Virus record (IMG/VR): IMGVR_UViG_3300025362_000050 | Location: 1-22,094 of that record | Source of the DNA: a virus | Reading direction: 5' to 3' (one strand) | DNA length: 22,094 bases | In this document: positions 420 through 18,089 of the stretch, piece after piece | How the letters are laid out: each line of letters opens with the position of its first letter | How positions within the stretch are numbered: position 1 is the stretch's first letter | Position numbers and translations under genes: made by a program | The notes under the pieces: generated by a model | What the model was told of the DNA's origin: nothing | What the model saw: the letters and a program-made list of their open reading frames with translations, nothing else | Database searches by the model: none

Positions 420-911
420 ATGGCAGAAAATATACTAGACGTTAACGAAATGTTATTTGATAAGTTTGAGCCAAGATTAAAGAATAGATTTATATTAGAA
501 ATAGATGGAATACCTTCATTTTTAATTAAAGGTGCGGCGAGACCAAGCATAACTATTGATGAGGTTGAATTGCCTCATATTAATATAACAAAATATTCTA
601 TGGGTAAAGTTTCTTATGACGAAATTAGTTTAACTTTATATGACCCAATATCACCATCAGGTGCTCAAATTGTAATGAATTGAATTAGAGCACATCACGA
701 AGCTGAAACAGGCAGAGACGGATACGGAGCAATGTATCAAAAGGATGTAACTATACTTGAATTAGGACCAGTTGGCGATAAAATTAGTGCTTGGACATTA
801 AAGAAAGCATGAATTAAAAGTGCAAACTTTGGCGAATTAGATTGGGGAGATGCAACAGCACAAGAAATCACGATTTCTCTCCGCTACGACTACCCAGTAA
901 TGGAGTATTAG
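420..911 (+). CDS. Tail tube protein (T4 gp19-like)
   Basis: The product is 163 residues when TGA is read as Trp, matching the size of T4 gp19, the protein that stacks in hexameric rings to form the tail tube. In-frame TGA codons at 681-683 and 810-812 give MNWIRAHHE and KKAWIKSANFGELDWG. These line up with the KFVDW and GLWPTNVGELQLDWD segments of T4 gp19 as I recall it, so both TGAs sit at Trp positions of the family. The C-terminus ends in an LRYDYP-type strand, as in tube proteins. The start has an AAAGGAG ribosome site. Two further Trp codons are TGG. Read with the standard code the gene would be cut at residue 87, so this small conserved protein is the best proof of recoding in the window. 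Confidence 0.88.
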
Positions 912-913
912 AT

Positions 914-969
914 ATGATTAAGCGGTTCTTAAATCTTTTTACTGCTTAATCATAAAAGATTGTTAAAAA
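914..969 (+). repeat. Structured repeat, copy 1 (10-bp hairpin plus 16-nt tail)
   Basis: Directly after the tail tube stop, ATGATTAAGC (914-923) and GCTTAATCAT (944-953) form a perfect 10-bp inverted repeat around a 20-base loop. The right arm continues into AAAAGATTGTTAAAAA. The right arm plus tail (944-969, 26 bases) is repeated exactly at 2037-2062, together with its partner arm. Each copy is followed within a few bases by a second hairpin and a T tract. The two copies flank the HNH gene and one small gene. It may be a processing or termination element, a small RNA, or a scar of the insertion. Confidence 0.75.
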
Positions 970-975
970 CAATAT

Positions 976-1010
976 TCCTCCATATATATAATTGTATGGA
1001 GGATTTTTTT
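976..1010 (+). promoter_or_regulatory. Hairpin with T-run that contains the HNH gene's ribosome site
   Basis: TCCTCCATA (976-984) pairs with TATGGAGGA (995-1003) in a 9-bp stem with a 10-base loop, followed by seven T (1004-1010) and then ATG at 1011. It looks like a rho-independent terminator for the tail tube transcript. The 3' arm is also the GGAGGA Shine-Dalgarno of the HNH gene, so read-through RNA would have this site masked. The sequence CATATATATAATTG in the 5' arm and loop resembles the promoter-like boxes elsewhere; RNA starting there would lack the masking arm. Control by such an arrangement is known for T4 homing endonuclease genes such as I-TevI. Here it is inferred. Confidence 0.6.
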
Positions 1011-1805
1011 ATGGAAAAATTTAAGTGTAAAAGATGTAGCCGAATATTTGATAACTATAATAGTCTTAGGAAACATGTGGGTTGGCTTCATGGAATTAAA
1101 TCAGAGGATTTTCATTTAGAATTTTATCTAAATGGAATAAGACCAACATGCAAATGCGGATGTGGAGAAGAAACTAACTTTAATTCGCATGGGTTTTGCG
1201 ATTACAAAAGAGGACACATTTCAAGAGTAAAAAATAATTGGGGCCATAATCCAAAAGCAATTGAACATTCCGCAGAAACAAGAAGGCAACAATATAAAGA
1301 CGGCGTAAGAGAGCCTTGGAATAAAGGATTGGACATTACAGACGAACGTGTTAGATTAAATGCCGAAAATTCAAGAAAAACAATTTTAGCTGATAAAGAT
1401 TTATTAAAAAGAAAATCAGAACGTATGAAAAAAATGTGGAAAGATGGCGTGCTTAAAGTTGAATATGGTGCGGAATCTCCCGCATGATGTGGCGGTAATA
1501 GTTCAATAAATGCGGCATGTCACGGAAGTAGAAAATTATATAATGAATGAAAATTTCCAATATTAAAAAAATATGAATTCAAATGTTCAAAGTGTGGTGC
1601 TGGCGGCAAATTAGATGTTCATCACAATCAAATAATAATGTCAGAAATAATAAATATTATTAGAAAAAAGAACAATTTTGATGATAAGTTAGACAGAACT
1701 AAATTTATTGATGCAATTATAAATTATCATACGGACAATGAAATATCAGGCGTTGCATTATGCAGAGAATGTCACCGAGAACTTCACAATAGTTTTAATT
1801 TCTAA
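1011..1805 (+). CDS. HNH homing-type endonuclease with N-terminal zinc finger
   Basis: The product is 264 residues with two TGA-Trp codons (in SPAWCGG and YNEWKFP). The N-terminus has a C2H2-type finger (C6, C9, H22, H27), followed by a CKCGCG cluster and an EPWNKGLD stretch typical of NUMOD3-like DNA-binding modules. The C-terminus carries the nuclease: FKCSKCG (C192, C195), DVHH (H204, H205) and LCRECHRELH (C251, C254, H255, H259), the zinc-stabilised HNH layout. Free-standing HNH genes of this kind are selfish homing elements that cut phage DNA at a specific site. It sits between tail genes within the repeat-bounded island. I chose ATG 1011 over an upstream start because GGAGGA is correctly spaced there. 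Trp use is 4 TGG and 2 TGA. Confidence 0.88.
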
Positions 1806-1837
1806 TAAAAAAAACAAGAGTTTGCGATTTAAATTAA

Positions 1838-1852
1838 GCATATATATTTGTA
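1838..1852 (+). promoter_or_regulatory. Promoter-like box GCATATATATTTGTA
   Basis: This box runs directly into TATGGAGG, the ribosome site of the small gene at 1866. The composite CATATATA..TTGTATGGAGG is almost the same as 981-1002 before the HNH gene, so the promoter and ribosome-site cassette appears duplicated. Here the masking CCTCC arm is absent. Confidence 0.4.
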
Positions 1853-1865
1853 TGGAGGTTATTTG

Positions 1866-2042
1866 ATGGGTATATTTAAGAAAATTTTTAAGAAGAAAAA
1901 AGAACAAATTTTATGGACAGTAAGAAGAAATTGCTCCGAAAATGACGTAGTGGATGCATGGATTAGGGATAAAAATGATAATTATATTCCAATAGACTTA
2001 CTTATGATTAAGCGATACACGAAGTTTTTATGTAAAGCTTAA
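1866..2042 (+). CDS. Small basic hypothetical protein (58 aa)
   Basis: The gene starts at an ATG 1866 preceded by GGAGGT; a TTG 18 bases upstream overlaps the ribosome site and is unlikely. The product begins MGIFKKIFKKKKEQ, a strongly basic amphipathic start shared in style with the proteins at 2166 (MKFLDKVVKLFKK) and 2864 (MSFLSKLFKKK), so the three may be related or follow the same targeting. No known domain is recognised. Its last 13 codons overlap copy 2 of the structured repeat, so the present C-terminus may have been created by the repeat. It contains two TGG Trp codons and no TGA. Confidence 0.65.
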   Translation: MGIFKKIFKKKKEQILWTVRRNCSENDVVDAWIRDKNDNYIPIDLLMIKRYTKFLCKA

Positions 2043-2062
2043 TCATAAAAGATTGTTAAAAA
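2004..2062 (+). repeat. Structured repeat, copy 2
   Basis: ATGATTAAGC (2004-2013) pairs with GCTTAATCAT (2037-2046) around a 23-base loop. The 26 bases at 2037-2062 are identical to 944-969. The loops differ between copies (apart from a T-rich run), so arms and tail have been kept or copied while the loop was not. It overlaps the end of the 1866 gene and is followed at once by a strong terminator. Confidence 0.75.
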
Positions 2063-2068
2063 TATTAG

Positions 2069-2092
2069 CTCCGCCTTGTGCGGAGTTTTTTT
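2069..2092 (+). terminator. Rho-independent terminator
   Basis: CTCCGC (2069-2074) and GCGGAG (2080-2085) form a GC-rich stem with a 5-base loop, followed by seven T. It ends the unit containing the HNH gene and the 58-residue gene. Confidence 0.85.
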
Positions 2093-2126
2093 ATATAAAA
2101 ATAAGAGTTTTTGAATTTGTTTGAAA

Positions 2127-2140
2127 TACATATAGATAGA
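2127..2140 (+). promoter_or_regulatory. Promoter-like box ATACATATAGATAGA
   Basis: This AT-rich box sits about 25-40 bases before the ATG at 2166, after the terminator, where a new transcript is expected. The sequence AAGAGTTT upstream (about 2103-2110) also occurs upstream of the 1838 box (about 1816-1823), suggesting related promoters. It matches the recurrent consensus only loosely. Confidence 0.3.
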
Positions 2141-2165
2141 AATAAAAGTATAGGGGGTTACATTG

Positions 2166-2447
2166 ATGAAGTTTTTAGATAAGGTTGTAAAGTTGTTTAA
2201 GAAAACCTCGCCATTTGACGACCCGACATATATTCCTGATTGACTAAATTTTGACTTTAATACTATGGACTTAAAAACATATGACATTTACGGAAACGTA
2301 GCACAAGAAGAATTTACGATGGTAATCACAGAACATGGAAAGTGGATAGGCATAGACAATATTAATTGGAAAGCATATCCAGTTGCCGTATTGGGAGTCA
2401 AGCAATATACATATAGGGAATGTTTGACAGTAAAAAAAAGAAAATAA
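2166..2447 (+). CDS. YDIYGN-motif small protein (93 aa)
   Basis: The gene starts at ATG 2166 after an AGGGGG ribosome site and needs one TGA-Trp (PDWLNF). The product opens with a basic amphipathic helix, MKFLDKVVKLFKK, and carries TYDIYGN at 2277-2297. The same motif occurs twice in the product of the 2864 gene (YDIYGN at 3068-3085 and 3329-3346) and as TIYGD in the 2482 gene. After the motif comes a beta-rich segment (MVITEHGKWIGIDNINWK). No known domain is recognised. It belongs to an accessory cluster between tail tube and baseplate genes and may be a non-essential virion or host-takeover protein; function unknown. Confidence 0.75.
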
Positions 2448-2481
2448 AAGCTTATAACGAAAGAAAAAGTATGGAGAAATT

Positions 2482-2880
2482 ATGTCAAAAATAAAAGCAT
2501 TTACGATTTACGGTGATGAGTTTATGACATCTAAAGATAAATATAAATTAGTTGGTTTAACCGTTGTCAAAACTACTTGGCTTCAAAGAACAAAGTCAAT
2601 GGATTTTGGTTGGGGCAATGGTTATGTTGTTGTTGATAAATATCATCCAGCATATGGCAAAAAGTATCTTGAAGGAGTGGATGTTCATGGCGGCATTACA
2701 TATTCAGAAGAAATGAATGATAAAAAAATTGGGGATTTATATGTAAAACATGGTTGGTGTTTTGGATTTGATACAGCACATGGGAATGATTCGTTAACAG
2801 TTTATAATAAAAGATATGTAATAAGTGAAACAATGAGATTAGCAAAACAATTAGAGGAATACAATGAGCTTTCTTTCTAA
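2482..2880 (+). CDS. Conserved phage hypothetical protein (VHGGITYS ... GFDTAH type)
   Basis: The product is 132 residues and starts after a GGAG site. It contains GYVVVDKYHPAYGKKY, VDVHGGITYSEE and HGWCFGFDTAHGND, then ends in an ETMRLAKQLEEYNEL helix. This order (HP..GK, VHGG-T-S, W-x-x-GFD-x-AH) is, from memory, a widespread phage family of unknown function. The N-terminus KAFTIYGDEFM resembles the YDIYGN motif of the flanking genes. It contains three TGG Trp codons and no TGA. The end overlaps the start of the 2864 gene by 17 bases, suggesting coupled translation. Confidence 0.8.
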   Translation: MSKIKAFTIYGDEFMTSKDKYKLVGLTVVKTTWLQRTKSMDFGWGNGYVVVDKYHPAYGKKYLEGVDVHGGITYSEEMNDKKIGDLYVKHGWCFGFDTAHGNDSLTVYNKRYVISETMRLAKQLEEYNELSF

Positions 2881-3463: not shown

Positions 3464-3483
3464 AAAAACAAGAAAAAAGTAAT

Positions 3484-3500
3484 AACATAATATATATAAG
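3484..3500 (+). promoter_or_regulatory. Promoter-like AT box before the gp26-like gene
   Basis: ACATAATATATATAAG lies in the 90-base gap before the tail/baseplate module, about 55 bases from the ATG at 3554. It fits the general AT-rich promoter pattern but lacks the TTTAT core. Confidence 0.3.
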
Positions 3501-3553
3501 AAATGGGTTATGTAAATCAATAAAACAAACCAAAATGAATATAGGAGAAAGTT

Positions 3554-4339
3554 ATGGCAGAAGAAAAAGCAACATTTCCAACAGAAATGATAGAGTTACC
3601 GAGTAAAGGGTGATTATATCCAGCGGAACATCCACTAAATAAAGGGTCAGTAGAATTAAGATACCCAACGGCGGCAGATGAAGATATATTAACATCAAAA
3701 AATTTAATACAGAAAGGTATCGTTTTGGATAAGTTTATTGAGGCAATATTTATCGGTGATAAAAATGTATTAAACGATATGCTTTTGGGCGATTATGATA
3801 AAGTAATGATGGCTGCAAGAATATTAGCATACGGTGGCAAGTATGATACAAAAATTAATTGTCCGAATTGCGGAACACGTAATGATATTTCAATTGATGT
3901 AATGAAATGGGAACACGTATCGATGAAGGAAAAAAATTATACTATCGGGAAAAATGAATTCACATTTAAGTTACCAGTAAGTAAGAAAGAATTAACATTT
4001 AAGTTATTAACTTACAAGGATAGTAAGGATGTTGAAATTGAATTGAAACGTATGAAAAAACTTTATGGTGCGACAGGCGTACAACCAGAAATGACGAGTA
4101 GATACAAATATATGATAACTGCAATAGATGGCGATGCAGATAGAAGGACTATTAATTTATTTGTTGATAAAGAATTTCTTTTGCAAGATTCACGTGATTT
4201 TAGAGATTATCTTTTGACAATAGCACCTTCTGTAAATACAAGTTATGATTTCGTATGCGTTGAATGTAATTTTGAAGATATCATTGAGGTGCCGCTTGAT
4301 GCGAACTTTTTTTGGCCTACCAAACATTCAAGGAAATAG
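3554..4339 (+). CDS. Baseplate hub assembly protein (T4 gp26-like)
   Basis: The product is 261 residues with one TGA-Trp at residue 20 (ELPSKGWLYP). The opening ELPSKG-x-x-YP followed by GSVELRYPTAADEDIL is the signature of the T4-type baseplate protein family (Pfam T4_baseplate, gp26), which acts in assembly of the baseplate hub. Two Cys pairs, CPNC at residues 103-106 and CVEC at 235-238, could bind a metal; the end ...DANFFWP matches the usual FFRP-like tail of the family. The start has an AGGAG site. The end overlaps the next gene by 41 bases, a typical pairing of hub-assembly genes. Family assignment is from recalled patterns. Confidence 0.78.
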
Positions 4340-4607
4340 GGAATTAACAGGAAAAGAATCATCAGCAATAATGATGTCAAAGCGTAACTTGTATAAGGAA
4401 ATATTTAATTTAAGTTATTATAGCAAAGGTGCATTTAATTGAGAAATAATTTATAATATGCCAATATGAGTAAGAAGCTTAAATATTAAATTCTTAAATG
4501 ACGCACGTGAAGCAGAAAACAAACAAGCAACCGCTTCTGGTTCTGGTTCTGGAAAAACTATAGCAAGACCGCCTAAATTAGGCAAATCGGTCTCAAGACC
4601 TAAATAA
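4299..4607 (+). CDS. Baseplate hub assembly catalyst-like small protein (T4 gp51-like)
   Basis: The product is 102 residues and requires two TGA-Trp codons (FNWEII and PIWVRS); there is no TGG. The core LYKEIFNLSYYSKGAFNWEIIYNMPIW-x-R..NIKFLNDAREAE is the short helical pattern found next to gp26-like genes in marine T4-like phages (gp51-like or tail chaperone-like). The tail is Ser/Gly then basic and Pro-rich. I chose ATG 4299 because GAGGTG lies just upstream; this makes a 41-base overlap with the gp26-like gene. ATG 4371 is an alternative without a good site. A strong terminator follows the stop. Confidence 0.7.
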
Positions 4608-4612
4608 AAGAG

Positions 4613-4640
4613 AGCCCAGTGAAAACTGGGCTTTTTGTTT
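4613..4640 (+). terminator. Strong terminator with GAAA tetraloop
   Basis: AGCCCAGT (4613-4620), loop GAAA, ACTGGGCT (4625-4632), then a T-rich tract. An 8-bp stem with a GNRA loop is a textbook intrinsic terminator, and ends the gp26/gp51-like unit. Confidence 0.92.
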
Positions 4641-4660
4641 TTCAAAAAAATTATTATTTT

Positions 4661-4672
4661 GATATTTATATA
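4661..4672 (+). promoter_or_regulatory. Promoter-like box GATATTTATATA
   Basis: This box lies just after the terminator and 37 bases before the ATG at 4709, preceded by TTTT. It is one of the best examples of the recurring element and probably starts the tape measure transcript. Confidence 0.5.
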
Positions 4673-4708
4673 CAATAGATGCGTACAATTATATATAGGA
4701 GATAACTT

Positions 4709-4885: not shown

Positions 4886-4895
4886 GGAAATGTAA

Positions 4896-7800
4896 ATGGC
4901 CGACATTATAGAAGTAAAGCACGAAGAAACCCTTTTGACCTTAACTGAATCCAGAAGACAAGAACTTGAAAAACAGAGTAAGATAAAAGATGAAATATCC
5001 AAGCAAGACGAAAAAATATTGGAGATGGAAAAGGAAAAGGATAAATGACAAGAGAAGACAAGAGCGGAAAACGAAAAAATACTTAAAGATTTGAAAGTGC
5101 AAAGGGCATTTAATTCTAAAGATTTAAAAGTTTTACAACAAAAAGCAAAAGCAGAAGAGGACAAACTTAGTTGGGCGTCAGGAATGAAAAGTTACGCATT
5201 GAAAATGTCGAAAGAACTTAAAAAACAAAATCGTTCTGTTGAAATTGGATTGGACTTGTCAACAAAACAAGCTTTGTTAAATAAAATACAAGATTCTTAT
5301 GCTAATGGCGCAAGTGAAGAAGCAATTAATCAAGGCAAAGGTGCGAAAATTCTTTATGAGATGCAACAAAGGTTAAACGACGAAGCTGAAGCTGGCAATG
5401 TAATAGACAGAAGCAAGGCCGCATTGTTAGAGGAGTACGCTCAACAAATGGGCACAAATTTAGAATCAATGAGCGAAAGCCAACGTAAGTATGCCGAAGG
5501 AATAATTGCACCTTTCCAAATCGCACATCAAAAATTATCTGACATGACAGGGGAAAATTTAGAAAGTTTAGTAAATGTAAATTCTCAATTAAGCGAAATG
5601 GCCGGAAGATGAGACAAAACGAAAAAGGGCGTTACAGATGTTAAAGATTTAGTTTCTGGATTGCTTAATAACCCTGCGTTATCAGCAAGTATATTTGGGT
5701 ATGAGGTTGGAAAAAAAGCCATAGAGCTTGGTAAATCATTTGGTGATATATTAAATACTGGAATTAGTGTTGAAAATGTAATAGGTGAAATGGGATTAAG
5801 TATGGGTACGGCTACCTTAGCAAGTTTGAAATATGGAGCGTCGGCCAAAGAAGTTTTAGAAGCAACGAAAGCTATAACTCAAGAAATGGGTTCGATTGAA
5901 CATGCCACTCACGAAAATGTTAAAGGTGCCGTTAAATTAATGAAACTTTATGATATGGATGCGAGTTCTGCGGCAAAAATAACAAAAGAATTTTCACAAA
6001 TAGGTAAATTAACTGGACAAACAAATGAAGAATTGCGCTCATCAGTGGCAGAAATGGCTAACTTGAGCAAAGTTGCACCAACGGCAGTATTTGAAGATTT
6101 ATCAAGTAATGCCGAAGCAATGGCAAAATGATTAGACGCAAGTGGCAAGAATATGATTGGACTTTCTGTATCATCAAGACAATTGGGATTATCCATGGGA
6201 GATACGTTAGCAATGACAGAAGGTATATTGGATTTTGAAAGTTCAATTGAAAAGCAAATGACGGCATCGGTAATGACAGGTAGAAGTTTTAATTTTGAGC
6301 AAGCAAGAATGTTAGCATTTGCTGGTGACCACGAAGGTGCGTTGAAAAATATAGTTTCACAATTAGGTACAGAACAAGAGTTCTTACAAATGAATGCATA
6401 CCAAAGGCAATCAATGGCTGATATGTTAAATACATCGGTTGGTAGTTTAAAGGATATGATTATAAATCAAAACAAACTTGGAAAAGAAACTGGAAAATAT
6501 AGCAAGCTTTTAGAAGAAATAGGCGGAATAGTGAAGGGCGGGTTTTCGCTTATTAACAAAGACAATATTATTATGATGGGCTCTTTAGTAGGTACTATAA
6601 AAAACTTAGGTCTTGATAAAATTATTGGGCAAACAAAAGTATGAATGGGATTAACGACAGGTGTTAAAAATCTTTGAGGAAAAGTTGGAGCTTTGATGCC
6701 TGGCGGTAATGCGCTTAAACAAGCACAAAAATCATATTCTGATAAACAAATAGGAATTGGACTTGGCGGAAAGAAAGCAAAAGATTTATTAGCCAAAAAA
6801 AGTCTAAAACTTGCCAATAAAGAAGCCAAATCACAGACCGCTAATGCAGTCAAGGCAAAAGCTAAAACTGTAGCCCAATCAAAAGCTGAAACTGTAGCCC
6901 AATCAAAGACCGCCGGCGTAACTAAGTCAAAGCTTGGTGCAGCCGCAAGAGGCAAAGATATAAAAACGACACCAGCAACGAAGGGTGTCGGTAGCAAAGT
7001 AACTAAAGTCGATAAATCTGGTGGTAAGGGTGGAGTTGCAGGGTGAATAAAGAGTTGAGATGGCGTTAAATGAGAAACTTTAGGTAAGATAGCAACAGCA
7101 CTTTTGATTATTGGAGTTGCAATATTTGGGTTTGGAAAAGTAATAGCATCATTACCAACAGATCCAGCGCAATATCTTGCGGCAGGAGTAATGATGGTTG
7201 GGCTTATGGCTTCAATTTGGGCTATATCAAAAATATCAAAAAAGATTGACATGAAGAGTCTTGTTAGGGGTGCGGCCGCAATGGTACTTATAGGCGCCGC
7301 ATTGATTCCATTTGCATTTGCTTTAAGTTTGATGGAAGGTGTTAGCTGAAAAACACTTGCGATTGCCGGCGTAGGATTAGTTGGACTTGCGCTCGTAGTT
7401 GCAGGGCTTGGTGCAATTATGCCTCTTATATTATCGGGAGCATTGGCGTTAGGTGCTATGGGATTGGCATTGATTCCATTTGCATTTGCTTTAGGTTTAA
7501 TGGAAGGCGCTAGCTGAAAAACACTTGCAATAGCAGGGGCAGGCATAGTAGGTCTTGGCATTATAGTATCTGGACTTGGTGCAATTATGCCTCTTATTTT
7601 AGCAGGGTCAATAGCGTTAGGTGCTATGGGATTGGCATTGATTCCATTTAGTGTTGCTATGAGTAAATTACAAGGTGTTAAATGAGAAAATCTTAAGGGA
7701 GCAGGCAAAGCATTGAGCGGACTTTCTTGGGCTATAATAAAACTTGGTGCAATAATGGCAACTGGTGTCGGCGCTTTAGTTTTTGGAGCTGGTATTTTGG

Positions 7801-8177
7801 CATTAATTAGTTTAAGTGGTGCGTTAATGAAGTTTGGCACAGCTTTAGGAGTTCTTTCAAAAAATGCAGATGGTGTAAATTATTTAGCGAGCTCATTAAG
7901 TATGCTTGCACAGTCAATGCAAGAATTGGCTGGAGTAAATGATAGTCTTAATGATATAAAGCCAGTATTAAAAACAATTCATAAAATTGAAACAGCGTTT
8001 GACCCTACAAAAGTAAATGGGCCAGCGACAGTAACAGCAACAGAAACAAAACAACAGTCAATAAAATTTGATGAGTTAATTAATCAAATAAAATTGTTAA
8101 GAAAGGACGTACAGCAGGGTATGACCATGGATGGCAGAAAAGTAAGTAGGGCAATAGCAAATACAACTGGAAATTAA
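4896..8177 (+). CDS. Tape measure protein (1093 aa)
   Basis: This is the longest gene in the window once 11 in-frame TGA codons are read as Trp (first at 5046, then 5610, 6129, 6642, 6675, 7044, 7056, 7071, 7347, 7515, 7683); only 3 Trp use TGG. The N-terminal ~110 residues form a Glu/Lys/Gln-rich coiled coil. The middle (about 255-560) is helical and Ala/Gly/Ser-rich, as in tape measures of T4-like marine phages. Residues ~600-710 are Lys/Ala-rich with a short tandem repeat. Residues ~736-960 are hydrophobic with a 56-residue repeat, likely the membrane-active part. The C-terminus is again coiled. Such a protein fills the tail tube and sets its length. It is followed by baseplate genes, as expected. 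Family is inferred from architecture and position. Confidence 0.88.
6861..6908 (+). repeat. 24-bp tandem repeat within tape measure (AKTVAQSK / AETVAQSK)
   Basis: Two adjacent 24-base units differing at one base near the start encode AKTVAQSK and AETVAQSK in the basic, Ala-rich linker of the tape measure protein. Near identity at the DNA level points to recent duplication. Confidence 0.85.
7299..7712 (+). repeat. 168-bp (56-residue) repeats in tape measure, 2.4 copies
   Basis: Units start at 7299 and 7467 and a partial unit at 7635, each opening with ALIPF and carrying a G(V/A)xW(K/E)(T/N)L segment. The Trp in each is encoded by TGA, at 7347, 7515 and 7683, exactly 168 bases apart. A degenerate relative GVKWETLG, also with TGA, lies at about 7062-7085. 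The units are hydrophobic and Gly/Ala-rich, fitting membrane-interacting hairpins. Confidence 0.9.
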
Positions 8178-8189: not shown

Positions 8190-10268
8190 ATGGCATTTAT
8201 TGATATAAAAACTGAATTCTCAAACGGTAACTTTGGAGTAAAAGAAACATCAACACGTCCACAAACAGAAGAGATATTTACAAGTGGATTGTTTGATACT
8301 TTAGGCGAGAACAATATTATTTTTTTGAAATCAGCAACAATAGTGAGTAGATATGTAAAAGATTTGGGCGATACAAGTAATGAAGATATTCAAAAACCAT
8401 TTACGGTTGAAATAGGGAACCAAGAAGACACAACGTATAATGCACCCCCACCATTGACAGGACTTGATACAATAGAAAAAAATATTGAAACTGAATATAA
8501 GAGTGGGCAAAGTGCTCCGTATATTCCAAAGATAGATGTACCAAAAGGTGGATTTCTTGGTACTGGTGCTGGCGGAGGAGTTGGCGAAGCTCTTGGCGAT
8601 TTTGTTGATAGAGCGACAAAAGATGTAATATGGATGGCAAAATATTTAAATCCAGTTGGTAAGAATTTCTTTGGTGAGACTGGCGGATTTTGGTTTTTAG
8701 CAAATCAACAATTCTTACAAACATTTAGTGCAAGAACAAGTACTAAAATATATAATCCATTTTCACTCTTTAGAGTGCGTGGGTTATCACCTCATTATCA
8801 ACTTCCAAGCTTTATTGATATAAAAAGAGACTTTCCATGAGGAAACCATCATTACACCAAATGAATGGAACAGAAAATTGAGAAAGAACCAAATACCGTA
8901 ACTCCCCCAATACCGAATGCGTTCACAAGAGCCGTTTTGGCAGTTACAGCGGCACTTGGAGTTAAAACGGACGACAGAACTTTATTTGAAAGATATATAG
9001 AAGATGGGGGGATTTCAACAGAATTAAGTTCAAACAATACGTCCAAGTATAACGCTAAAAATTTATTTTATAATGAAGGTTCGCAAGCATTTATAAATCC
9101 TTGGTCTTATAGTAAAGATAATCTTACTAAAACTCAATTTCCGAAAATTTATGTCCGAGATGATGGTTCTCCATACATCACAAGAAAAAATGAAAATCCT
9201 GAGCTAACAAGTCCGAGGGCGAAAGCTCCTGGTGGGGGAAGTTTCTTGACAGATTGAATTCAACTTTATGATGCATCATCACTTGCTCCAGAATTCACAG
9301 ATTTTAAAAAAGATTGACCAGATGCAAAGGATGTAGCGACAACGACTGCACATAAATATTTTGCATATGATTACGAACAGATAGGGCAAGTAGCAAGAGG
9401 TGAATTAAAAAAATATAGTGCCATAGATTTTATACATCCAGATGGTGCCAAAAATGTTAAAAGTATTAGGCAAATTACTTCGGGCAGTAGATTATCATAT
9501 ACTAATTTTGGTTATTCGCAATATCAAAAAGATTTAGATATTCGTAAAATGGGGAGTATGTTTGGCGAAGGTGGCGATGTAAGTAAAGTTGAGGGTAATG
9601 ATTGAAGAGATGCTGTTGATAAAATTAATATGCTTGATTATGACGACCCAGATATAGATAAAAAGACTGGCCTTATGAAAAGCGGTCTAAAGGATGTTAT
9701 ACCATTTAAAATTCATGATATTTATAATGATAAATATATAATATTCAGAAGTTTAATTACTTCAATTGTTGACTCTCCTAAAGCAGAATGGTCAGAAAAA
9801 AGTTATGTTGGCAGACAAGATAAAGTACATATCTATACAGGCGTAAGTAGAAACTTTAACTTTAGTTTGAAAGCAATGGCATATTCATTAGCAGAAATGA
9901 AACCATTATGGAGAAAATTAAATTATTTAATTGGATTACAATACCCACATAAGACAAGCGAAGAAAATCCAAAAATGATTGCTCCATTTATTAAATTGAC
10001 ACTTGGTAGTTTTTTGAAGGATACATACGGATATATTAACTCTCTTACAATTACTTATCCAGATGATTTCCCATGGGAGCTTGGAGGATATACTGCCGAT
10101 GATGGCTTTCCAGATGGCGTAGCCCCACTCGATTATAATATACAATTGCCAATGGGTTTTGAATTAACTATTGATTTTACAATTATACCAAATAAACTAT
10201 TACATTCGACTTCTCAACATATATTTGGCGCACCAGAAACTTGATTCCCAAAAGTTACTAGAGGTTAA
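8190..10268 (+). CDS. Large baseplate / tube-initiator-like structural protein (692 aa)
   Basis: The product is 692 residues with six TGA-Trp codons (for example FPWGNHH, TKWMEQ, TDWIQL, KDWPDA, NDWRDA, ETWFPK) and six TGG. The N-terminal half has a Gly-rich stretch (GTGAGGGVGEALGDF) and many loops. The C-terminal ~200 residues contain an IVDSPKAEW..YVGRQDKVHIY..SRNFNFSL segment, a Lys/Leu-rich helix (MKPLWRKLNYLIGLQYP) and FIKLTLGSFLKDTYGYINSLTITY, the sort of tube-like fold found where tube initiators (T4 gp48/gp54 role) meet the baseplate. It directly precedes a LysM-type gp53-like gene, which agrees with this. The role is inferred, and other virion functions are possible. Start has AGGAAG upstream. 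Confidence 0.7.
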
Positions 10269-10283: not shown

Positions 10284-10556
10284 ATGAATAGATATAGATA
10301 CACAAATCAAAAAAATAGTAAATATTCCACTACAAAATATCCCAAGATAGAACCACGTGAAGATGATATTGTAATAGAAGTTAAATATGGAGATAGACTT
10401 GATTTATTTGCAGGGCAATATTATAGTGATAGTACTTTATGATGGATTATAGCGAAAGCAAATGGATTGCCTGGCGATTCATATTATATAAGCACAGAGC
10501 AAACAATAAGAATACCAACTGATTATATTGATATAATTAAAACATTAAGAGGTTAA
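10284..10556 (+). CDS. Baseplate wedge subunit, LysM-like (T4 gp53-like)
   Basis: The product is 90 residues and starts after a GGAGGT site. It holds a LysM-type pattern: VKYGDRLDLFAGQYYSD, then STLWWIIAKANG, then IRIPTDYIDII. This matches the gp53/LysM wedge proteins that clamp the baseplate to the tube in contractile tails. The Trp pair is written TGA then TGG (10440-10445), showing both codons side by side. The stop is one base from the next ATG. Confidence 0.88.
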
Positions 10557-10557: not shown

Positions 10558-12726
10558 ATGCCACAATTATGAGTAAAAAAAATTCAACCTGAAATTGAAG
10601 AAGAATTAAACAAAAGAAAAAAATATTTAAGTTATAATTTCGGAGAAGGATTAAGTGATAATGATTATCAACAATGGAATGCGAAAACGCCTTGGATTAC
10701 TGTATATTCAAATGTTTTAGAAAGAAAACAAAGTCCAGAAATTACATTGATACTTGAAGGTAATATAAATGGCAAAACAAAACGCTGAAGAGACCAAGAA
10801 AGTGATTACGATGGGGGAAAACTTGCCAAACAAAACACATTTAGAGGATTGCTTTCAATCGGAGGGAAAGATAGAGAAACGTTTGATGAAATATATAAAA
10901 ATGATTTATCGGACCCATATGCATTAAGGCCAGTACCTACTTTGGAAGGATTGACCGTTGAAAATCTTGATGATAAAGGTGCAGTTAGAAAATCAACAAT
11001 TGAATTTACATGTTATACATTTCAACAATTAGAAGATATGGAAAAATTATATATGTCGCCAGGTGCGTCTATCGTCGTACAATGAGGATGAAATACAACA
11101 GAAAGTTCGGTTGAAGCAGAAACATTTGAAAATAAAAGCGAACTATATAAATCTGAAACCATTAAGAAAAAAATACGAAGTTCTGGCGGAAATTACGGAG
11201 CGCTTCTCGGCGTGATTGGAAAATTTAGTTGAAACATACAAGATGATGGAAGTATTGCATGCTCAACGGAGATAGTTTCGAGAGGGTATATTGAGCCATT
11301 TGAAAATATAAAAGAAAATTCAAAAACCCTTTTTGATGATGAAGATGCAAGAACGATTACCGATGTACTTGAGGGTATTGGTAATAATGATTATTTGGTA
11401 GAATTAGATTCAAGTGCAACCTACGAAGATTATCGAACTAACTTTGGGGATAAATTGAAACCATTGTTTCTTGACACAGAGTATAAAGGCGAAGCAATAC
11501 AATACGATCAGAAACATTATTTATCTATTCAATTCATATTTAATTTAATTAATATATTTTATTCTGATGATGCTGGTTATAATGGCGAAGTTTTCAAGAA
11601 TAAATGATTTACAAAAAAGGAAGTGCTTACTAGTGGAGGATCATACAATAAAACTACTGAACTTCCAGTTCTTATAGGCAATAGAACAGATTCGCCAATT
11701 CTTAGGTCATTAGACAGAGATATATTTATAATACCAAGAGAAAGAATGAACCCAACACTTAAGTTGGCGGACAAGACAAGTGGATATTGGGGAAAGATTG
11801 GCGTAAAAACCTGAAAAGGATATGCTGGAGTTGATAGTACTGGGTGAATTGCAGAACCCGTCGATCGTATATTGGTTAATTTGGAGGTGGTCAAAACTGC
11901 TTTTGAGAATTCGAATACATATGCAGATGCGGTAAAAAATATTTTAGCACAATTAAATGAGTTCTCAAATGGATTTTGAGAATTAAAGCTTGAAAATGAT
12001 GATGCTGGATTCGTAAGGATAGTAGATAAAAATTTTGATCCAACAGAAATTGACGAAGTAAATGATACATATAAATTTCCAGCAGTTGGGCAATATTCAA
12101 TGGCACAAAGTGTTACCGTTGCATCGGCTTTGCCCGACCAAATGAAAAATGCGGCGGCGTATAGTGGAGTTGGTAATCAAAACTCCAAAACCAAATCTGG
12201 TTTTGGAACTTTATATGGCAATATAAGAGATGACTATAACAAAGGATTTGGAGGCATAACAAGATATCCTGGAACAATAAAAAAATCCACGGCAAACGAA
12301 GAGAACGAAAAAGCTATCAAATTTACTAAAAAGGGAAAATATTTCACAAATGTTAAAATTGATTCAAAATATTGGGCGTATATCGCAACCCAGTGAGGAC
12401 TTTCCGAAGATAACACTGCTGGATATACAAGCGCACTATTAATTCCATTAGACTTATCATTAACAATAGATGGCATTGAAGGGTTGGAATATGGCAATGT
12501 AATAGCAATTGATTATTTGCCAGAAAGATATAAAAATAATTCTGGGTTTATCATCACAAGCATTTCGCATAATATAGGTAGAGACGGTTGAACAACAACT
12601 CTCGGAACTCAATTTAGAGTTACACCAATCAAAAATACAACAAATGAAACTAAAGACAAGATTAAATTGAATTATTGAAATTATATTCCGGTAAACGGTT
12701 CAAGACCATCCAGACATAGGGAATAA
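10558..12726 (+). CDS. Large baseplate hub-like structural protein (722 aa)
   Basis: The product is 722 residues and uses 12 TGA for Trp against 4 TGG, the highest TGA count in the window. An early part (SPEITLILEGN.., LEGLTVENLDDKGAVRKS) leads to a conserved-looking LEDMEKLYMSPGASIVVQWGW, where both Trp are TGA. The C-terminal part (LSLTIDGIEGLEYGNVIAI, then SGFIITSISHNIGRDGWTT and TLGTQFRV) resembles the final domain of gpD/gp27-like hub proteins, which build the ring joining tube and spike. It lies between the wedge gene and another structural gene. I see no lysozyme motif, so it is not a full gp5. The hub assignment is inferred from recalled motifs. Confidence 0.65.
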
Positions 12727-12728: not shown

Positions 12729-13256
12729 ATGGGACATACTAACGGAAATAAATTTTTATTAAACGACTTACCTTATATTGGAATATATAGTAAGGGTCCT
12801 GATGATAATTATTATACAGGCGACTCATATATTTTTGGTGTTTCAAAACTCTTAACATTAATTAATATAGAGAGTATTGGGTATAGAGTTGGCGATGAAG
12901 ATTACGATAAACTTGAAAGTACATTTTCACAAAGGGAAATAAATTATGCAAAGGATTTCTACCCAACTATTACTGAGGCCAATATTAAGAAAGAATTTAT
13001 ATATAGATATTTTGCACAACAATGAAACGATTTGAATGCTCGTATAATAGAAATTAAAGGCGACCAATTTAGCGAAATTGATAAAGGGTTTTATAGAGCG
13101 ATTAAATTAAAATGAATGGTTGCTGGAGATATCGCAAAAGTTTCAAGTAAAAATTTAGATGAAATTAATAGAATATCAAAAACAATGCCAAAAATTAGTT
13201 CAAAGTTAAACAACACAATAGAGTTATATAATTTACAACGTACAGATATAATTTAA
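12729..13256 (+). CDS. Putative virion structural protein (175 aa)
   Basis: The gene starts two bases after the stop of the hub-like gene (TAATAATG) and needs two TGA-Trp codons (QQWNDL, LKWMVA); it has no TGG. The product opens with FLLNDLPYIGIYSKGPDDNYYTGDSYIFG, reminiscent of small phage baseplate or tail proteins with an LPY-x-G-x-Y ... YYTG pattern. The second half is helical (KNLDEINRISKTMPKISSKLNN). Strict coupling to the hub-like gene makes a baseplate role likely; the precise function is not recognised. Confidence 0.7.
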
Positions 13257-13307: not shown

Positions 13308-14633
13308 ATGCAAATTATTCATACTACAAAACAATTAAACGATATTGAGTTAGAGAACGATATTATTGTAATACCAATTCTTAACAATAATGTTGAACAC
13401 GCAAGTATTAATCCACTTTGCGTATTGTATGTGTATGAACTCAAAACAAAAAATGAATACATTTTATCCTTTACTCATATTGATACAAAATCACACTTAA
13501 AATTAAACGATTTGAAAGCATTGAACATAAATAATATAAAATACGTCTATGATAAAAAGGAGATGCTCCAGATATATGAATTTGAAGGTCTGGTTGATAT
13601 TTCACTTATGCAGTACCTCAGGATAAACAGAAACATAAATATTGAAAAACTTTTAACGAAAGCGCATCACTTTTTTTACAAACAATATGAGACATATAAA
13701 TCAAACAATCGATTAGTTCCAATTGTTAAGCACCTCGAAATGTGTACAAACTTGGTTAATAAATTTATACCAATGATTAACAAACATACCGATAGTAGAG
13801 AATTTCAATTTTATAATGAAGATGCGTCAATAGCGTTTAGCAAGCTTGAGTCTAATGGATTGTATGTAGATAAAGATAAATTAATGCGTAGCTTTGGGTA
13901 CAATGTCGCAAAACATATTACAGACAACAAAGTTTATACGAAGTATAATTTTAACACTATCACAGGAAGGCCTTCAAATGCTTTTGGCGGAATCAATTAT
14001 GCGGCACTAAACAAATCAGACGAAAGCAGAGAATGTTTTATTAGTAGATTTGGCAAAAGTGGAACTTTAGTTGAACTTGATTATGTTGCCTGCCATTTAT
14101 ATTTGATTGCTGATATTATTGGATATGAATTCCCAGATGGGCTAACGGGGCATGAGTATATGGCATCACAATATTTTAATGTTAAAGCCCCAACACAAAA
14201 AATGATTGACAAATCAAAAGGTATTACATTCAAACAGATGTATGGCCATATTAGTAAAGAGTATGAGCATATTGAATTTTACAAACAATTAAAAGAATTT
14301 ATTAATGTAATATGGATAGAACATTACTCAAATAAAGATGTTATTCCAGTAATTGAAAGAAAAACTTCAGTTATAGATAACAAACAAAAGTTGTTTAATT
14401 ATTTTGTTCAGAACTATGAAACAAAGAGAAATATTCCCTTAATGATAAAAGTGAATGAATTACTTGAGAATTACAAAAGTTGTTTAGTGTTGTATACTTA
14501 TGACTCATTTTTAATTGACTATCATGTTAGCGATGGCAAAGAACTTATAAAAGCAATAAGAGATATTTTAACAGAAGATGATAGATTCCCAGTTAAAATT
14601 AAACATGGCAAAAATTATAAAGTCATTAAATAA
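13308..14633 (+). CDS. Truncated, divergent family A DNA polymerase-like protein (441 aa)
   Basis: The C-terminal half matches the palm and fingers of family A DNA polymerases. TGRPSN is at residues 219-224, followed by INYAALNKSD. Motif A is LVELDYVACHLYLIAD with D258; motif B is DKSKGITFKQMYG with K304, F308, Y312 and G313; motif C is YTYDSFLIDY with D399. The two metal-binding Asp remain, but motif A has His where Glu of DYSQIE is usual, the first Arg of motif B is Ile, and motif C has D-S instead of D-E. The N-terminal ~200 residues show no 3'-5' exonuclease motifs I recognise. It may be a specialised polymerase or a non-catalytic relative. It has a single TGG Trp and no TGA, unlike its neighbours, and sits alone between virion-type genes. 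Confidence 0.75.
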   Translation: MQIIHTTKQLNDIELENDIIVIPILNNNVEHASINPLCVLYVYELKTKNEYILSFTHIDTKSHLKLNDLKALNINNIKYVYDKKEMLQIYEFEGLVDISLMQYLRINRNINIEKLLTKAHHFFYKQYETYKSNNRLVPIVKHLEMCTNLVNKFIPMINKHTDSREFQFYNEDASIAFSKLESNGLYVDKDKLMRSFGYNVAKHITDNKVYTKYNFNTITGRPSNAFGGINYAALNKSDESRECFISRFGKSGTLVELDYVACHLYLIADIIGYEFPDGLTGHEYMASQYFNVKAPTQKMIDKSKGITFKQMYGHISKEYEHIEFYKQLKEFINVIWIEHYSNKDVIPVIERKTSVIDNKQKLFNYFVQNYETKRNIPLMIKVNELLENYKSCLVLYTYDSFLIDYHVSDGKELIKAIRDILTEDDRFPVKIKHGKNYKVIK

Positions 14634-14699: not shown

Positions 14700-16604
14700 A
14701 TGGACAATGTATCTGAATATATAGAAAGTATAACTGAAAGAGTTATCATAAAGACAAATAACGCTTTGATAGATTGAAGTGAAGCCGAACATATATTGGC
14801 TTTGGAAGAAATTCTAATAGAAGATGGCATTCCATTTTACCTTATAAACGAATTAGTACTTCAATTACAAAAAACCCCAAATCAATTGACTGAAGAAGAA
14901 GATTCGCCCGCCACAAAAAAAGCAAAAAAATTAAAATACGTTTATAAAGGTGGCGATGTGTGATTGGATAAAGAGAATGGCAAAGTGGTTGCAAAAAATT
15001 CTGCTGATGGTGAAACTTTGGAAGATTGAAGCGAAGTAGACCAAAAAAATGCCGAAAAGGGGAAGGAACCAGAGAAAATAGAGCCAAAGGCCGGAACGTC
15101 AACGGACCCTAATAGCGATGGGAAGTCAGACACTCCTGACGATAAGCAAGCTAATGGCAACACAAATATAAAAGAACCTAAGAAACCTAAAGAAGTAGTA
15201 ATTAAAGGGAAAACAAAAACATTAACGCCAGGCGACCCAACAAGTGATAAAGTTTGGAACGAAGATTTGGCAATTAGTGATGATGATTTTGTTAAAAATA
15301 TGAAAAAGGCCGGAGTAGCGATAAAAGAACCACCATTTAAAATTGATGCAGAAAAATTTCAAGCAAATATTCCAACAAAATATAGAAAGTTATTAGAACG
15401 TATAATGAGCGTTACACCTTCTAAAGAAACTGGAGGAATTAGTGCTTTTACTGGAGAAAGTGCTGGTGCTGGGACTATTAATTCTCAAGCTGGAGAGATA
15501 TTAACAATGGTCGCAGTAGCATTCAAGCCAAGAGAAGATTGGTCAGAATTTGCTAAAACAATAGAAGCTTATATAGCAGGGCAAGGCAAAGATTTACCTG
15601 AAAATAAAAAAGATAAAAATTCAATTGTTAAATTGAGCTGGATTGATGCGGCTACAAAGTCAGCGGAATCAATTGAAAGAGTTATTGCAGACAAATATGG
15701 CGAAGGTGCTAAGGTTATGACTGCCGTTTGAGATACAGAAAAAGATTTTAAATTAATAGGTGGGCAAAAATACAAAGATAACAAAGGTTATAGTACAGAT
15801 ATATATCTTAAAGTAAAGGACGCAAACGGTGATGAGGAACTTTTAGAAGTTTCATTAAAAAAAGATACTGAAACTTTTTTATTGAATTCGACTATTAGTC
15901 AAGTATATGGCGAAGGTCATGATTTAACAAAAATGGCAACAGATTATAGACATGAAACAAACAGCGAAGTTGTAAAAGCAATAAAAAATAATATTTTTAC
16001 AGACAAGGAACTTGCAAAATTTCCAAAATTAGCCAAAAGAGTTCAAGCCATATTAGAGAATTATGAAAACAATAAGCCACAAGTATATGCAGACACGTAT
16101 GCGGTGTACCAGGCTATAAGTGTAAAGGCAAAAGCGGGAAACAAAACTTCTAAGGTGTTCATGGATAATGATAGAAAAAATTATACAGATACACGTACTA
16201 AAATAATATCAAGTATGGTTGATGGTGATGAAGCAAAGAAAGCAACACTAAAAATGATTGATGAAAAATTACCACTTAGTTCTGTAGCTGACAATGAAGA
16301 AGTTATTGTTTTAGGTGATATTTATATAGACGGCCCAACATTAAAGAAAATTCTTGGAACCGATGATATTTCAACTTTACGTAAACATATTGTCCCAGCA
16401 ATGCGCCCAGCGAAAGGGGGCTTGCCAGCAACGCCAATATTAATCTATAAGACTGACAACGTTAATGACAAACCAATTACAATCGCTACGCTCAAAACAA
16501 GACAAAAGCCAAGAGGCAGTGGTAGCTTTTTATTTGACGTTAAGTTGCATAAAGATTTTATTAAAAAAATTAAAGATATTAGAGACCAAAAGAATCCAGA
16601 ATAA
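14700..16604 (+). CDS. Large unknown protein with possible nuclease-like middle segment (634 aa)
   Basis: The product is 634 residues with four TGA-Trp (LIDWSEA, GDVWLD, EDWSEV, AVWDTE) and three TGG. It starts after AAGGGA. The first ~55 residues are an acidic helix. Residues ~90-190 form a low-complexity, Lys/Pro/Asp-rich linker. From ~190 a folded part begins (YRKLLERIMSVTPSKETGG, AGEILTMVAVAF). Around residues 350-400, GYSTDIYLKV and LLEVSLKKDTETFLLNS recall the D...(E)-x-S-L-K core of some restriction-like nucleases, a weak match because a standard D/E-x-K triad is not present. The C-terminal region ends in a basic strand-rich part. It might be a virion or DNA-handling protein; no family is securely recognised. 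Confidence 0.7.
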
Positions 16605-16626
16605 ATATAATTAGGAAATAAATAAT

Positions 16627-17034
16627 ATGAGCAAACAATATGTAAAAAATCAACTGCTATGCACATTTAGCAAACCAAAATATTTAGAGCAAAATATTAA
16701 AGATATTAAAACTCAATATAATTTGATTAATGAGAAGATTATTGCAATACAAAACATTGAAAACGAAGATGAATTATTTTGTATTTATAATATTGTTGTA
16801 GAAGATAGAAACACAAACTATCCAAATACAATATTAATACATAGAAAAAGAAAGACTAACACATTATATACAATTAACAGCTTAAACTCTTTGATTTGAC
16901 TTTTAAATGATGGTAAATTTAGCCATGATTTCATTGTACCATGAGAAAATTATAGAAATACTTTATTGTTAATTCGTGATAATGACTTATTAAAAATTGA
17001 AACAAAATTATACAAAACTTTTAAGTTCGATTAA
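16627..17034 (+). CDS. Conserved-looking phage protein of unknown function (135 aa)
   Basis: The product is 135 residues once two TGA-Trp codons are read (LIWLLND, VPWENY); there is no TGG. It contains NQLLCTFSKPKYLEQNIKDI, DELFCIYNIVVEDRN and ILIHRKRKTNTLYTINSLN, compact and strand-rich, with few loops, which suggests a folded, conserved protein. From memory, similar proteins occur in marine T4-like phages without a known role. The ribosome site is AGGAAA. It lies in a run of small same-strand genes after the 634-residue protein. Confidence 0.72.
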
Positions 17035-17045
17035 GGAGAAAGTTA

Positions 17046-17285
17046 ATGAAAAAATCAGAAATAAGAGCAATGATAAGAGAAGAATTAAATACAAATAAAG
17101 AATATATTGTTTGAGGCGTTCCACATGGGAAAACTGATGAGGAAGTTCTTTATACAAAAGCTAAAAGCGAAGGCGAAGCCAAAAAAGTTGCCAAAATATT
17201 GTCTACAAAATATGGTGCAAAAAAAACAAGAATTCAAATTCTTGATTTAACAACCAAGATTGATTTCTCTAAAGTTGTTTCGTAA
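17046..17285 (+). CDS. Small unknown protein with MKKSEIR N-terminus (79 aa)
   Basis: The gene starts after AAGGAGAAAG and needs one TGA-Trp (IVWGVP). The product begins MKKSEIRAMIREEL, the same kind of N-terminal amphipathic helix as the gene at 17763 (MKKSELNEIRNIM) and partly the gene at 17422. The rest, with EGEAKKVAKILSTKYG and TRIQILDLTTKIDF, looks like a small alpha/beta domain. No function is recognised. Confidence 0.72.
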
Positions 17286-17421
17286 TATTTAGGATATATA
17301 ATGGCGCAAGTATATGTGGCGGCGGCAAGACCAAATGTTTGGCCGAAATATTAATATTGCTTGATGCAATGAAAATAAAAACAAAACAAATAAATAAGTA
17401 TATTTATTAGGAGAAAATAAA
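17286..17421 (+). other. Short intergenic stretch with possible micro-ORF and AT box
   Basis: A 17-codon frame (ATG 17301 to TAA 17354, MAQVYVAAARPNVWPKY) has an AGGA site 6 bases upstream and could be a tiny gene. Another frame across the same bases (about 17286-17409) reads CGGGKTKCLAEILILLDAM but has no start codon. Near the end is AAGTATATTTATTAGGAG (17396-17413), a promoter-like box running into the ribosome site of the 17422 gene. Nothing here is firmly a gene. Confidence 0.35.
17398..17408 (+). promoter_or_regulatory. Promoter-like box GTATATTTATT
   Basis: It shares the TATTTATT core with the boxes at 356 and 14656 and lies 14 bases before the ATG at 17422, touching the ribosome site; that close spacing would give a near-leaderless RNA if used. 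Confidence 0.3.
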
Positions 17422-17748
17422 ATGAACAATAACAGTTTTAAGAAATTATTAAAAGAATATAGAAGTAAAATGTTGTCCGAAGGATATAGCGAAAGTAGCT
17501 TATTAAAAGATTTAGCAGAAGATGCTTTTAATACGGTTGGGTTATGACTTGAAATTGACATGACCGAATTTATGGATGGCGATAGCAAAACGCAAATTGA
17601 ATTTATCGAAGATAGCCTTGATAACTTTATAGAAGATATTTATGATGATGTTGGCGATTCATTGCCAGAAGACACCAATGTTGATAAGTGGTTAAAGAAA
17701 AATAGAAAGAAACTTATCTTATTAATACGCAAAGCTTTAAACAAATAA
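17422..17748 (+). CDS. Acidic small protein of unknown function (108 aa)
   Basis: The gene starts after AGGAGAAAATAAA and contains one TGA-Trp (GLWLEID) and one TGG. The product begins with a basic helix (NNNSFKKLLKEYRSKMLSEGY), then a very acidic middle (MTEFMDGDSKTQIEFIEDSLDNF, DDVGDSLPEDTNVD), and a basic C-terminal helix (WLKKNRKKLILLIRKALNK). The charge pattern resembles small head-core or scaffold-like phage proteins, but this is only an impression. Confidence 0.72.
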
Positions 17749-17762
17749 AAGGAGAACACAAA

Positions 17763-18089
17763 ATGAAAAAATCAGAATTAAATGAAATTAGAAACATTAT
17801 GAGCGAAGAGAAATTCCAGTCTAAGCTTCCTACTCAGCTAAAAGCTTCGGGAGTCAAATGATTACCCAATACTGGTGCTAACTCTAAACCTAATATAATT
17901 AGCAATGTTAATGCTGGCAATACTGGCTTAAACAAATGAGTTAAGACGCTTAATAGTGACATCAAAAAGTTAGAGAAAAACAAAGATGACAAAGCATTAT
18001 GGCTTAGTATACATAATGATTTATGAACAATTATAGCAATTGCGCAAAAGACACAACATTCGGCGGAATATGGAACGCCAAAAAAATAG
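17763..18089 (+). CDS. MKKSEL-type protein, first frame of a frameshifted gene (108 aa as read)
   Basis: The gene starts after AAAGGAG with MKKSELNEIRNIMSEEKF and uses three TGA-Trp (VKWLPN, NKWVKT, DLWTII) plus one TGG. It stops at TAG 18087-18089, directly after a run of seven A (18080-18086). A well-formed continuation exists in the -1 frame (FGGIWNAKKIENHKQGYF and beyond), which reads through the A run as AAA AAA ATA GAG. A AAA AAA is a classic -1 slippery heptamer, so programmed slippage is possible. A missing base further upstream (for example in AAAA at about 18043) or a true mutation would give the same picture. Function unknown. Confidence 0.65.

Follow-up and report, generated by a model that had tools for sequence, protein, structure and literature searches.

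Sequence evidence for UGA read as tryptophan in a T4-like phage with an intron-split candidate suppressor tRNA and a gene block that keeps TGG

The stretch of DNA under study (hereafter the window) is the entire IMG/VR record IMGVR_UViG_3300025362_000050 of 22,094 bases; it comes from a T4-like phage, and TGA codons lie within the reading frames of most genes in it. When open reading frames (ORFs) in the window were called with only TAA and TAG as stops (translation table 4), 21 plus-strand genes were found, together containing 52 in-frame TGA and 53 TGG codons, with TGA present in 16 of the 21 genes and an internal TAA or TAG in none. This count bears out the original prediction of more than 50 in-frame TGAs in otherwise intact genes, which had been ascribed to recoding of TGA to tryptophan. 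The genes discussed below are as follows, the residues after a TGA position being those found in relatives in the same alignment column.

420..911, + strand: tail tube protein, T4 gp19-like (PHROG 4542, 2e-28; PF06841, 27.1 bits, cut-off 28.2); 2 TGA (681, 810)
960..1805, + strand: HNH-type endonuclease-like gene (weak match to PHROG 8446, 4e-4); 2 TGA (1485, 1548)
2163..2447, + strand: small gene, no PHROG match; 1 TGA (2241)
3554..4339, + strand: T4-type baseplate protein (PF12322, 2e-9); TGA at 3611, R or H in three relatives
4302..4607, + strand: small gene overlapping the preceding one (start at 4245 in the ORF list); 2 TGA (4440, 4467)
4896..8177, + strand: tape measure-like protein with 56-residue repeats; 11 TGA, 3 TGG
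8190..10268, + strand: tail/baseplate-region gene with seven alignments to standard-code relatives; 6 TGA, 6 TGG
10284..10556, + strand: gp53-like baseplate wedge protein (PHROG 7145, 5e-12); TGA at 10440, adjoining a TGG
10558..12726, + strand: baseplate-region gene; 12 TGA, 4 TGG
12729..13256, + strand: tail-region gene; TGA at 13113 (Trp in 2 of 2 relatives) and 13023 (A and I)
13308..14633, + strand: DNA polymerase-like gene (PHROG 17, 2e-8); 0 TGA, 1 TGG
14700..16604, + strand: unknown gene; 4 TGA, 3 TGG; TGA at 15729 is Trp in the sole match
16627..17034, + strand: unknown gene; 2 TGA, at 16942 (Trp in 17 of 17) and 16897 (A, K or R)
17422..17748, + strand: unknown gene; 1 TGA (17545)
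17763..18089, + strand: unknown gene; 3 TGA
18240..19055, + strand: gp32-like single-stranded DNA-binding protein (PF08804, 2e-13); 0 TGA, 5 TGG
19084..20190, + strand: UvsX recombinase (PHROG 97, 7e-62); 1 TGA (19210; W 15, F 5, I 1), 4 TGG
20202..21266, + strand: 5'-3' exonuclease (PF02739, 6e-33); stop-like TGA at 21198 (Trp in 18 of 18, and in 26 of 26 in a larger comparison)
21488..22093, + strand: DNA methyltransferase, truncated by the window end (PHROG 67, 1e-32); 0 TGA, 7 TGG

The tape measure assignment was inferred from length, repeats and neighbours, the gene having no family match. On switching from table 11 to table 4, the coverage of the window by ORFs of at least 100 residues rose from 0.59 to 0.88, and TGA was rarer in the coding frame of the window genes (52) than in the two other frames (113 and 318). 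The data consist of metagenome contigs only, so that gene decay or sequencing error might be suspected, an explanation that we regard as scarcely credible: none of the 21 genes contains an internal TAA or TAG, the TGA counts recur identically, gene by gene, in a separate record (G001, 59451-37369, 99.86% identity), and TGAs occupy conserved Trp positions in capsid, portal and terminase proteins.

The record G001 (70.8 kb), in which ORF coverage likewise rises from 0.65 to 0.84 under table 4, overlaps three further contigs, namely G002 (43.3 kb; 33.6 kb shared with G001 at 99.99%), G026 (38.3 kb; 7.8 kb shared with G002 at 99.9%) and G028 (42.2 kb), whose terminal 125 bp coincide (100%) with the opening 125 bp of G001; together the four cover about 150 kb of the phage. 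Judged by its gene families, this is a T4-like myovirus, as had been proposed: it encodes a gp23 capsid protein (PF07068, 1e-53), an intein-containing gp20 portal protein (PF07230, 2e-63), a T4-type terminase (PF03237, 1e-7) with 7 TGAs, a contractile sheath, a gp19 tube protein (its Pfam score slightly below the cut-off), UvsX and gp32. The recoding is common to G003, G004 and G020, which match this phage almost exactly, and to G005 and G022. It appears to be local, because neither ten whole records of relatives (G006, G007, G008, G011, G013, G016, G021, G023, G024 and G025) nor 15 fragments of relatives gain from table 4; among 80 loci with related capsid genes, the gain in ORF coverage never exceeded 0.08. 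One of the standard-code relatives, G021, is 139.6 kb long with a GC content of 0.22 and has a sheath protein 37% identical. ORF coverage also suggested G018 as a second recoded phage, a candidate that was rejected as its seven TGA columns with at least three matches all lie in one likely spurious ORF. No near match to window positions 420-12726 was found among named phages. Contigs with numbers of the form 33000232xx probably originate from Ace Lake in Antarctica.

The amino acid encoded by TGA was examined by masking. In the window, TGA was masked as X with TGG left unmasked, and the proteins were aligned to standard-code relatives; of the 17 TGA columns with a match, 9 had W as the most frequent residue, 3 had F, 2 had A, and H, I and N each led in 1, with G in none; in the same run, W prevailed in 14 of 22 TGG columns. 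In a larger test, covering the genes of G001, G026, G028 and the small unique part of G002, both TGA and TGG were masked and only columns with at least three matches were counted (G028 yielded no such TGA column). The 45 TGA columns thus obtained were mainly W in 32, A in 4, F in 3, H in 2, and R, G, T and Y in 1 each, a pattern like that of the masked TGG control (W in 30 of 51 columns), and Trp was the best-fitting amino acid by 71 log-likelihood units over the next and by 129 over Ser. In the major capsid protein, all 80 relatives carry Trp in the TGA column. Within the recoded group, where pairs were taken in both directions, the partners of masked TGAs were TGA or TGG in 36 of 60, 58 of 78 and 83 of 104 cases, with Ser in 2 of each. 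For example, 7 of 11 aligned Trp sites of the 10558..12726 gene are TGA in both the window and G022, and likewise 7 of 11 against G005, whereas the UvsX site 19210 is TGA in the window and TGG in G005 and G022. Glycine, in the majority at none of the 17 window columns and at one of the 45, was rejected. These results show, on sequence grounds, that UGA stands for Trp in this T4-like phage, in agreement with the earlier preference for Trp over Gly.

The individual sites that had been put forward in support fared mostly well. In the gp53-like protein, the TGA beside TGG in the segment STLWW falls in a column that is Trp in 7 of 7 relatives; the UvsX TGA does give the segment DWLGTGSS; and the tape measure TGAs at 7347, 7515 and 7683 are spaced by 168 nt, i.e. 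56 residues, at the same Trp of each repeat. In the tail tube protein both TGAs had been equated with Trp of T4 gp19; when compared with standard-code relatives, rather than gp19 itself, the TGA at 681 is indeed Trp (3 of 3; 14 of 15), but that at 810 is mostly Phe or Tyr (W in 0 of 3; W in 1 of 16 residues shown). The region of recoding, given as 420-18089, was correctly placed but closed too early, as UvsX (19210) and the exonuclease (21198) contain TGAs too. The statement that no gene ends at TGA was partly circular, because the ORFs were called with TAA and TAG stops only (in eight standard-code relatives, 119 of 385 ORFs end in TGA); it does hold for the stop-like TGA at 21198, whose alignment with Trp in all 18 relatives led us to reject it as the true end of the exonuclease.

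The use of TGA is divided along the genome. The first 28.5 kb of G001 (52 genes) has a TGA:TGG ratio of 11:129 and the remainder (48 genes) one of 86:98 (Fisher p 2e-15), and the two parts of G022 differ similarly (5:67 versus 73:49; p 2e-14), whereas the GC content at third codon positions (GC3) and the use of codons ending in A or G (NNA/NNG) are near-equal between the TGA-poor block and the rest in both contigs. By gene class, replication genes are intermediate (4:13) and structural genes rank highest (40:22). When genes of G001 and G022 were paired as reciprocal best hits, the block contributed 10 pairs, in which all 36 aligned Trp codons were TGG in both contigs, whereas NNG codons for Lys, Glu, Gln and Arg (AGR), taken as controls, were retained at only 10 of 38 sites; outside the block the corresponding Trp counts were TGG/TGG 14, TGG/TGA 10, TGA/TGG 10 and TGA/TGA 12. 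TGG has thus been retained throughout while the control codons were scrambled, and therefore TGA is selected against in the block. A recent import of the block from a standard-code source, with drift to TGA still pending, would fit its accessory character, since blastp against standard-code relatives matched just 2 of the 52 block genes of G001. Such an import is nevertheless quite unlikely: the ten gene pairs shared with G022 have diverged to 38-71% amino-acid identity, GC3 and NNA use in the block resemble those of the rest of the genome, and the contrast of 36 of 36 with 10 of 38 strongly opposes it.

The block also has a recurrent, mostly intergenic sigma70-type promoter with the consensus TTGACA - 16 nt - TATTATAGTAATGTAAGTAA, which occurs neither in the window nor in any of three shuffled versions of each contig. 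First genes led by this promoter have a TGA:TGG ratio of 4:86 (25 genes) as compared with 401:524 in 286 other genes (p 1e-15). Among promoter-led genes outside the set on which the motif was trained, the ratio is 1:24 in 10 genes (7 in G028, 2 in G002 and 1 in G001), a count that excludes the G028 match at 42199, this being a training copy within the overlap with G001, and includes genes of a three-gene minus-strand island (0:6) among plus-strand genes of G002. Among the upstream regions of G001, exact copies of the T4 late promoter TATAAATA occur in 2 of the 52 belonging to the block and in 0 of the 47 others; copies with one mismatch occur in 15 of 52 and 24 of 47, respectively. The TGA-avoiding genes are probably an early set.

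The original prediction had called for a search for tRNA-Trp(UCA) beyond the window, and a UCA tRNA was indeed found, interrupted by an intron. Default ARAGORN detected no tRNA in the window, nor in G001, G002, G005, G020 and G022, and 34 tRNAs in G028, which serve all 20 amino acids and include tRNA-Trp(CCA) but none with a UCA anticodon. A lone T-arm at G001 69294-69310 led to the discovery of the split gene, for which ARAGORN in intron mode gave the anticodon tca and a 222-nt intron after position 35. Identical copies of 313 nt lie at G001 c69283-69595, G002 10887-11199 and G020 c11636-11948, outside the window. The intervening sequence is a group I intron (Rfam RF00028, 67.5 bits with a gathering score of 50; E 8e-17; positions 1-253 of 253, with the conserved catalytic core) and splits the anticodon between U34 and C35. 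Intron mode found no further UCA tRNA in the other 12 of 15 contigs, nor in the other-phage loci scanned, apart from L202. This locus, from a more distant phage (UvsX 53%), carries the same tRNA uninterrupted, with RF00005 as its best Rfam match (57.3 bits, E 1e-10), and its UvsX TGA falls in a column with W 15, F 5 and I 1 in relatives. The exon ends of the split tRNA agree with the intact one; the spliced G001 tRNA and that of L202 are distinguished by a compensating G-C to T-A change in the anticodon stem and, in the variable arm, by two inserted bases able to pair.

The tRNA-Leu(UAA) of LR756501 and Atu_ph07 carries a related intron at the same insertion point, as does a Microcoleus phage tRNA-Arg(CCU). 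Derivation of the suppressor from tRNA-Leu(UAA), at first favoured owing to the shared intron site, is now less favoured, as phage tRNA-Ser(UGA) aligns better. Among the best 25 of 127 records from named phages, the top match to the suppressor had an E of 0.8 and none spanned 80% of the query. A tRNA in the standard-code phage G021 was set aside as a tRNA-His, and a Sec (selenocysteine)-like match at G028 36878-36950 (27 bits, below the gathering score) was read as a CAU tRNA. Endonuclease genes of different families adjoin the suppressor in L202 (6162-6917, 6 TGA) and in G001 (68365-69192, 7 TGA), at different places in the genomes, and the suppressor may travel with them.

The split tRNA has an acceptor stem with the pairs A1-U72, G2-C71 and G3-C70 and the discriminator G73, which we take to fit the identity elements of Trp. 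It is a class II tRNA with a 19-nt variable region, is matched best by the phage tRNA-Ser(UGA) among the tRNAs compared, and is labelled 'SeC' by ARAGORN, so that insertion of Ser or Sec at UGA is to be considered; seryl identity would be chemically conceivable. A tRNA of Sec type has an 8-bp acceptor stem, whereas here a 7-bp acceptor stem is combined with a 5-bp T stem. Serine, moreover, lies 129 log units under Trp, and the partners of TGA are chiefly TGA or TGG, with Ser at 2 of 60, 2 of 78 and 2 of 104. The split gene could also be a bystander if UGA were read by another tRNA, such as the tRNA-Trp(CCA) of the phage array, given that UGA can be read in bacteria by a tRNA-Trp(CCA) whose anticodon stem has 4 bp (PMC13092985); the anticodon stem of the phage tRNA-Trp(CCA), for which 4 bp had been considered, in fact has 5 bp with one G-U pair. 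Both variants are accordingly very improbable.

The recoding had been left open as belonging to the phage, its host or both, and the evidence now points to the phage: its relatives keep the standard code, it carries a UCA tRNA gene of its own, and it has a block that keeps TGG. That UGA already means Trp in the host, with the phage only following, is suggested by the phages in INPHARED predicted to use table 4, of which 22 of 27 infect Mycoplasma or Spiroplasma (PMC11210395). A scan of genome contigs for the host gave five loci of relatives (UvsX 44-67%) in metagenome-assembled genomes with four unrelated labels and one 'uncultured bacterium'. A table 4 host, however, offers no reason for a block with 36 of 36 Trp codons TGG/TGG amid scrambled third positions elsewhere, a phage-made UCA tRNA would contribute little there, and relatives keep the standard code; we consider such a host quite unlikely. 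Neither a release factor nor a tryptophanyl-tRNA synthetase of the phage was found in six contigs.

Collectively, we put at about 0.8 the probability that this is a T4-like phage with UGA as Trp that infects a standard-code host, supplies its own split suppressor, and has a TGG-kept block translated before the suppressor appears. The phage would most likely provide an opal suppressor tRNA-Trp(UCA) from the split gene, whose UCA anticodon would be created by splicing of the intron and which, to judge from the alignment columns, would be charged with Trp. The genes read from strong sigma70-type promoters, which include the NAD-salvage genes and adjoin the tRNA array, are constrained to be nearly free of TGA and could thus be translatable before the suppressor exists, and the remaining genes, foremost those of the particle, mix TGA and TGG freely and would need it.

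Several observations weigh against this interpretation, in addition to the class II shape and Ser-like alignment of the tRNA. Thirteen of the 45 TGA columns are not mainly Trp, including three of five in the sheath and several in ribonucleotide reductase (RNR). The borders of the TGA-poor block were drawn by eye after the gene map, and the divide is not a plain one of early versus late genes, because RNR (7:1) is rich in TGA although its function is usually early, TGAs occur in helicase and exonuclease, and the ratio is 35:137 in G028, which has 11 promoter matches as well as the tRNA array. The promoter motif was trained on 15 copies from TGA-poor blocks, 8 of its 33 matches have no counted gene within 300 bases, and the suppressor is not preceded by a copy on its strand in G001, G002 or G026; later expression of the suppressor is deduced solely from the place of its gene. 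The recovered parts of G005 and G022 contain no suppressor. Intron mode also calls other split tRNAs, four in G028 and two in G018, and because these may be false, an ARAGORN intron-mode call taken alone is weak evidence.

A further step, which we offer tentatively, is that the intron gates a timed switch of the code: because the anticodon is absent until the intron is removed, splicing would set the onset of reading UGA as Trp, and similar split suppressors might explain many opal-recoded phages that seem to have none. Borges and co-workers reportedly suggested in 2022 that stop-codon recoding may control the translation of late genes.

Other features of the contigs were observed in passing. 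In the first 28.5 kb of G001 (L034, L035) lie NAPRTase, NAD synthase, NUDIX and isochorismatase-like genes of NAD salvage, each of the four having an orthologue in G022. G001 also encodes, at 31286-31831, a Tad6-like Thoeris inhibitor; together these may counter NAD-depleting defence. G028 (L182-L184) has two RNA ligases beside its 34 tRNAs and G001 a CCA-adding enzyme, which looks like a kit for tRNA supply and repair. Two short RNAs of G028, at 36795-36874 and 30011-30098, resemble the tRNA-like part of a transfer-messenger RNA (tmRNA) but lack a tag frame; their RF00023 scores of 38.4 and 24.5 bits fall short of the gathering score, which is 47. The UvsX of G005 (L041, 9681-11195) has an in-frame insert of about 137 residues resembling a mini-intein, and intein domains occur in the RNR and portal genes of the phage as well. 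A large Mom-like gene at G001 61291-63111 (PF25680, 5e-6, slightly under the cut-off; 0 TGA, 7 TGG) is one of four plus-strand genes (59225-63111) amid minus-strand genes.

Opal-recoded phages with a late-gene bias are already known. As described in PMC7886860 and PMC12386605, crAss-like phages resemble the present one in reading TGA as Trp, chiefly in late or structural genes, and in having close relatives with the standard code, and a UCA suppressor tRNA is found in some of them and undetected in others. The present phage differs in being a T4-type myovirus (gp23, gp20, sheath, UvsX and gp32), to which phage opal recoding is hereby extended, in the split suppressor, and in the measured constraint on TGG, where 36 of 36 codons kept against scrambled controls constitute a clean test for a block readable under both codes. 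Theta ribozymes are likewise catalytic RNAs proposed to act in the maturation of phage tRNAs, suppressors included; they act at the 3' end of the tRNA (PMC10879173), whereas here a group I intron lies within the anticodon. Introns in tRNAs are reported for 77% of jumbo phages with alternative codes (PMC13037316). Further parallels are the group I introns of tRNA-Leu(UAA) in LR756501 and Atu_ph07, inserted, as here, after the first base of the anticodon (72% identity to LR756501 over 221 nt, partly exon), but in tRNAs reading a Leu codon instead of a stop codon. An intron-split suppressor of a phage was not reported in the titles and abstracts among the matches listed, which is no proof of absence. 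The pair of a split and an intact suppressor opens the questions of splicing and identity to direct bench tests. Finally, in the table 4 phages of Cook et al. (2024; PMC11210395), a UCA suppressor was detected in 11 of 73; the present phage provides, by comparison, a concrete cause for a 'missing' suppressor and one route by which a default search misses it, namely that default ARAGORN is blind to the split gene.

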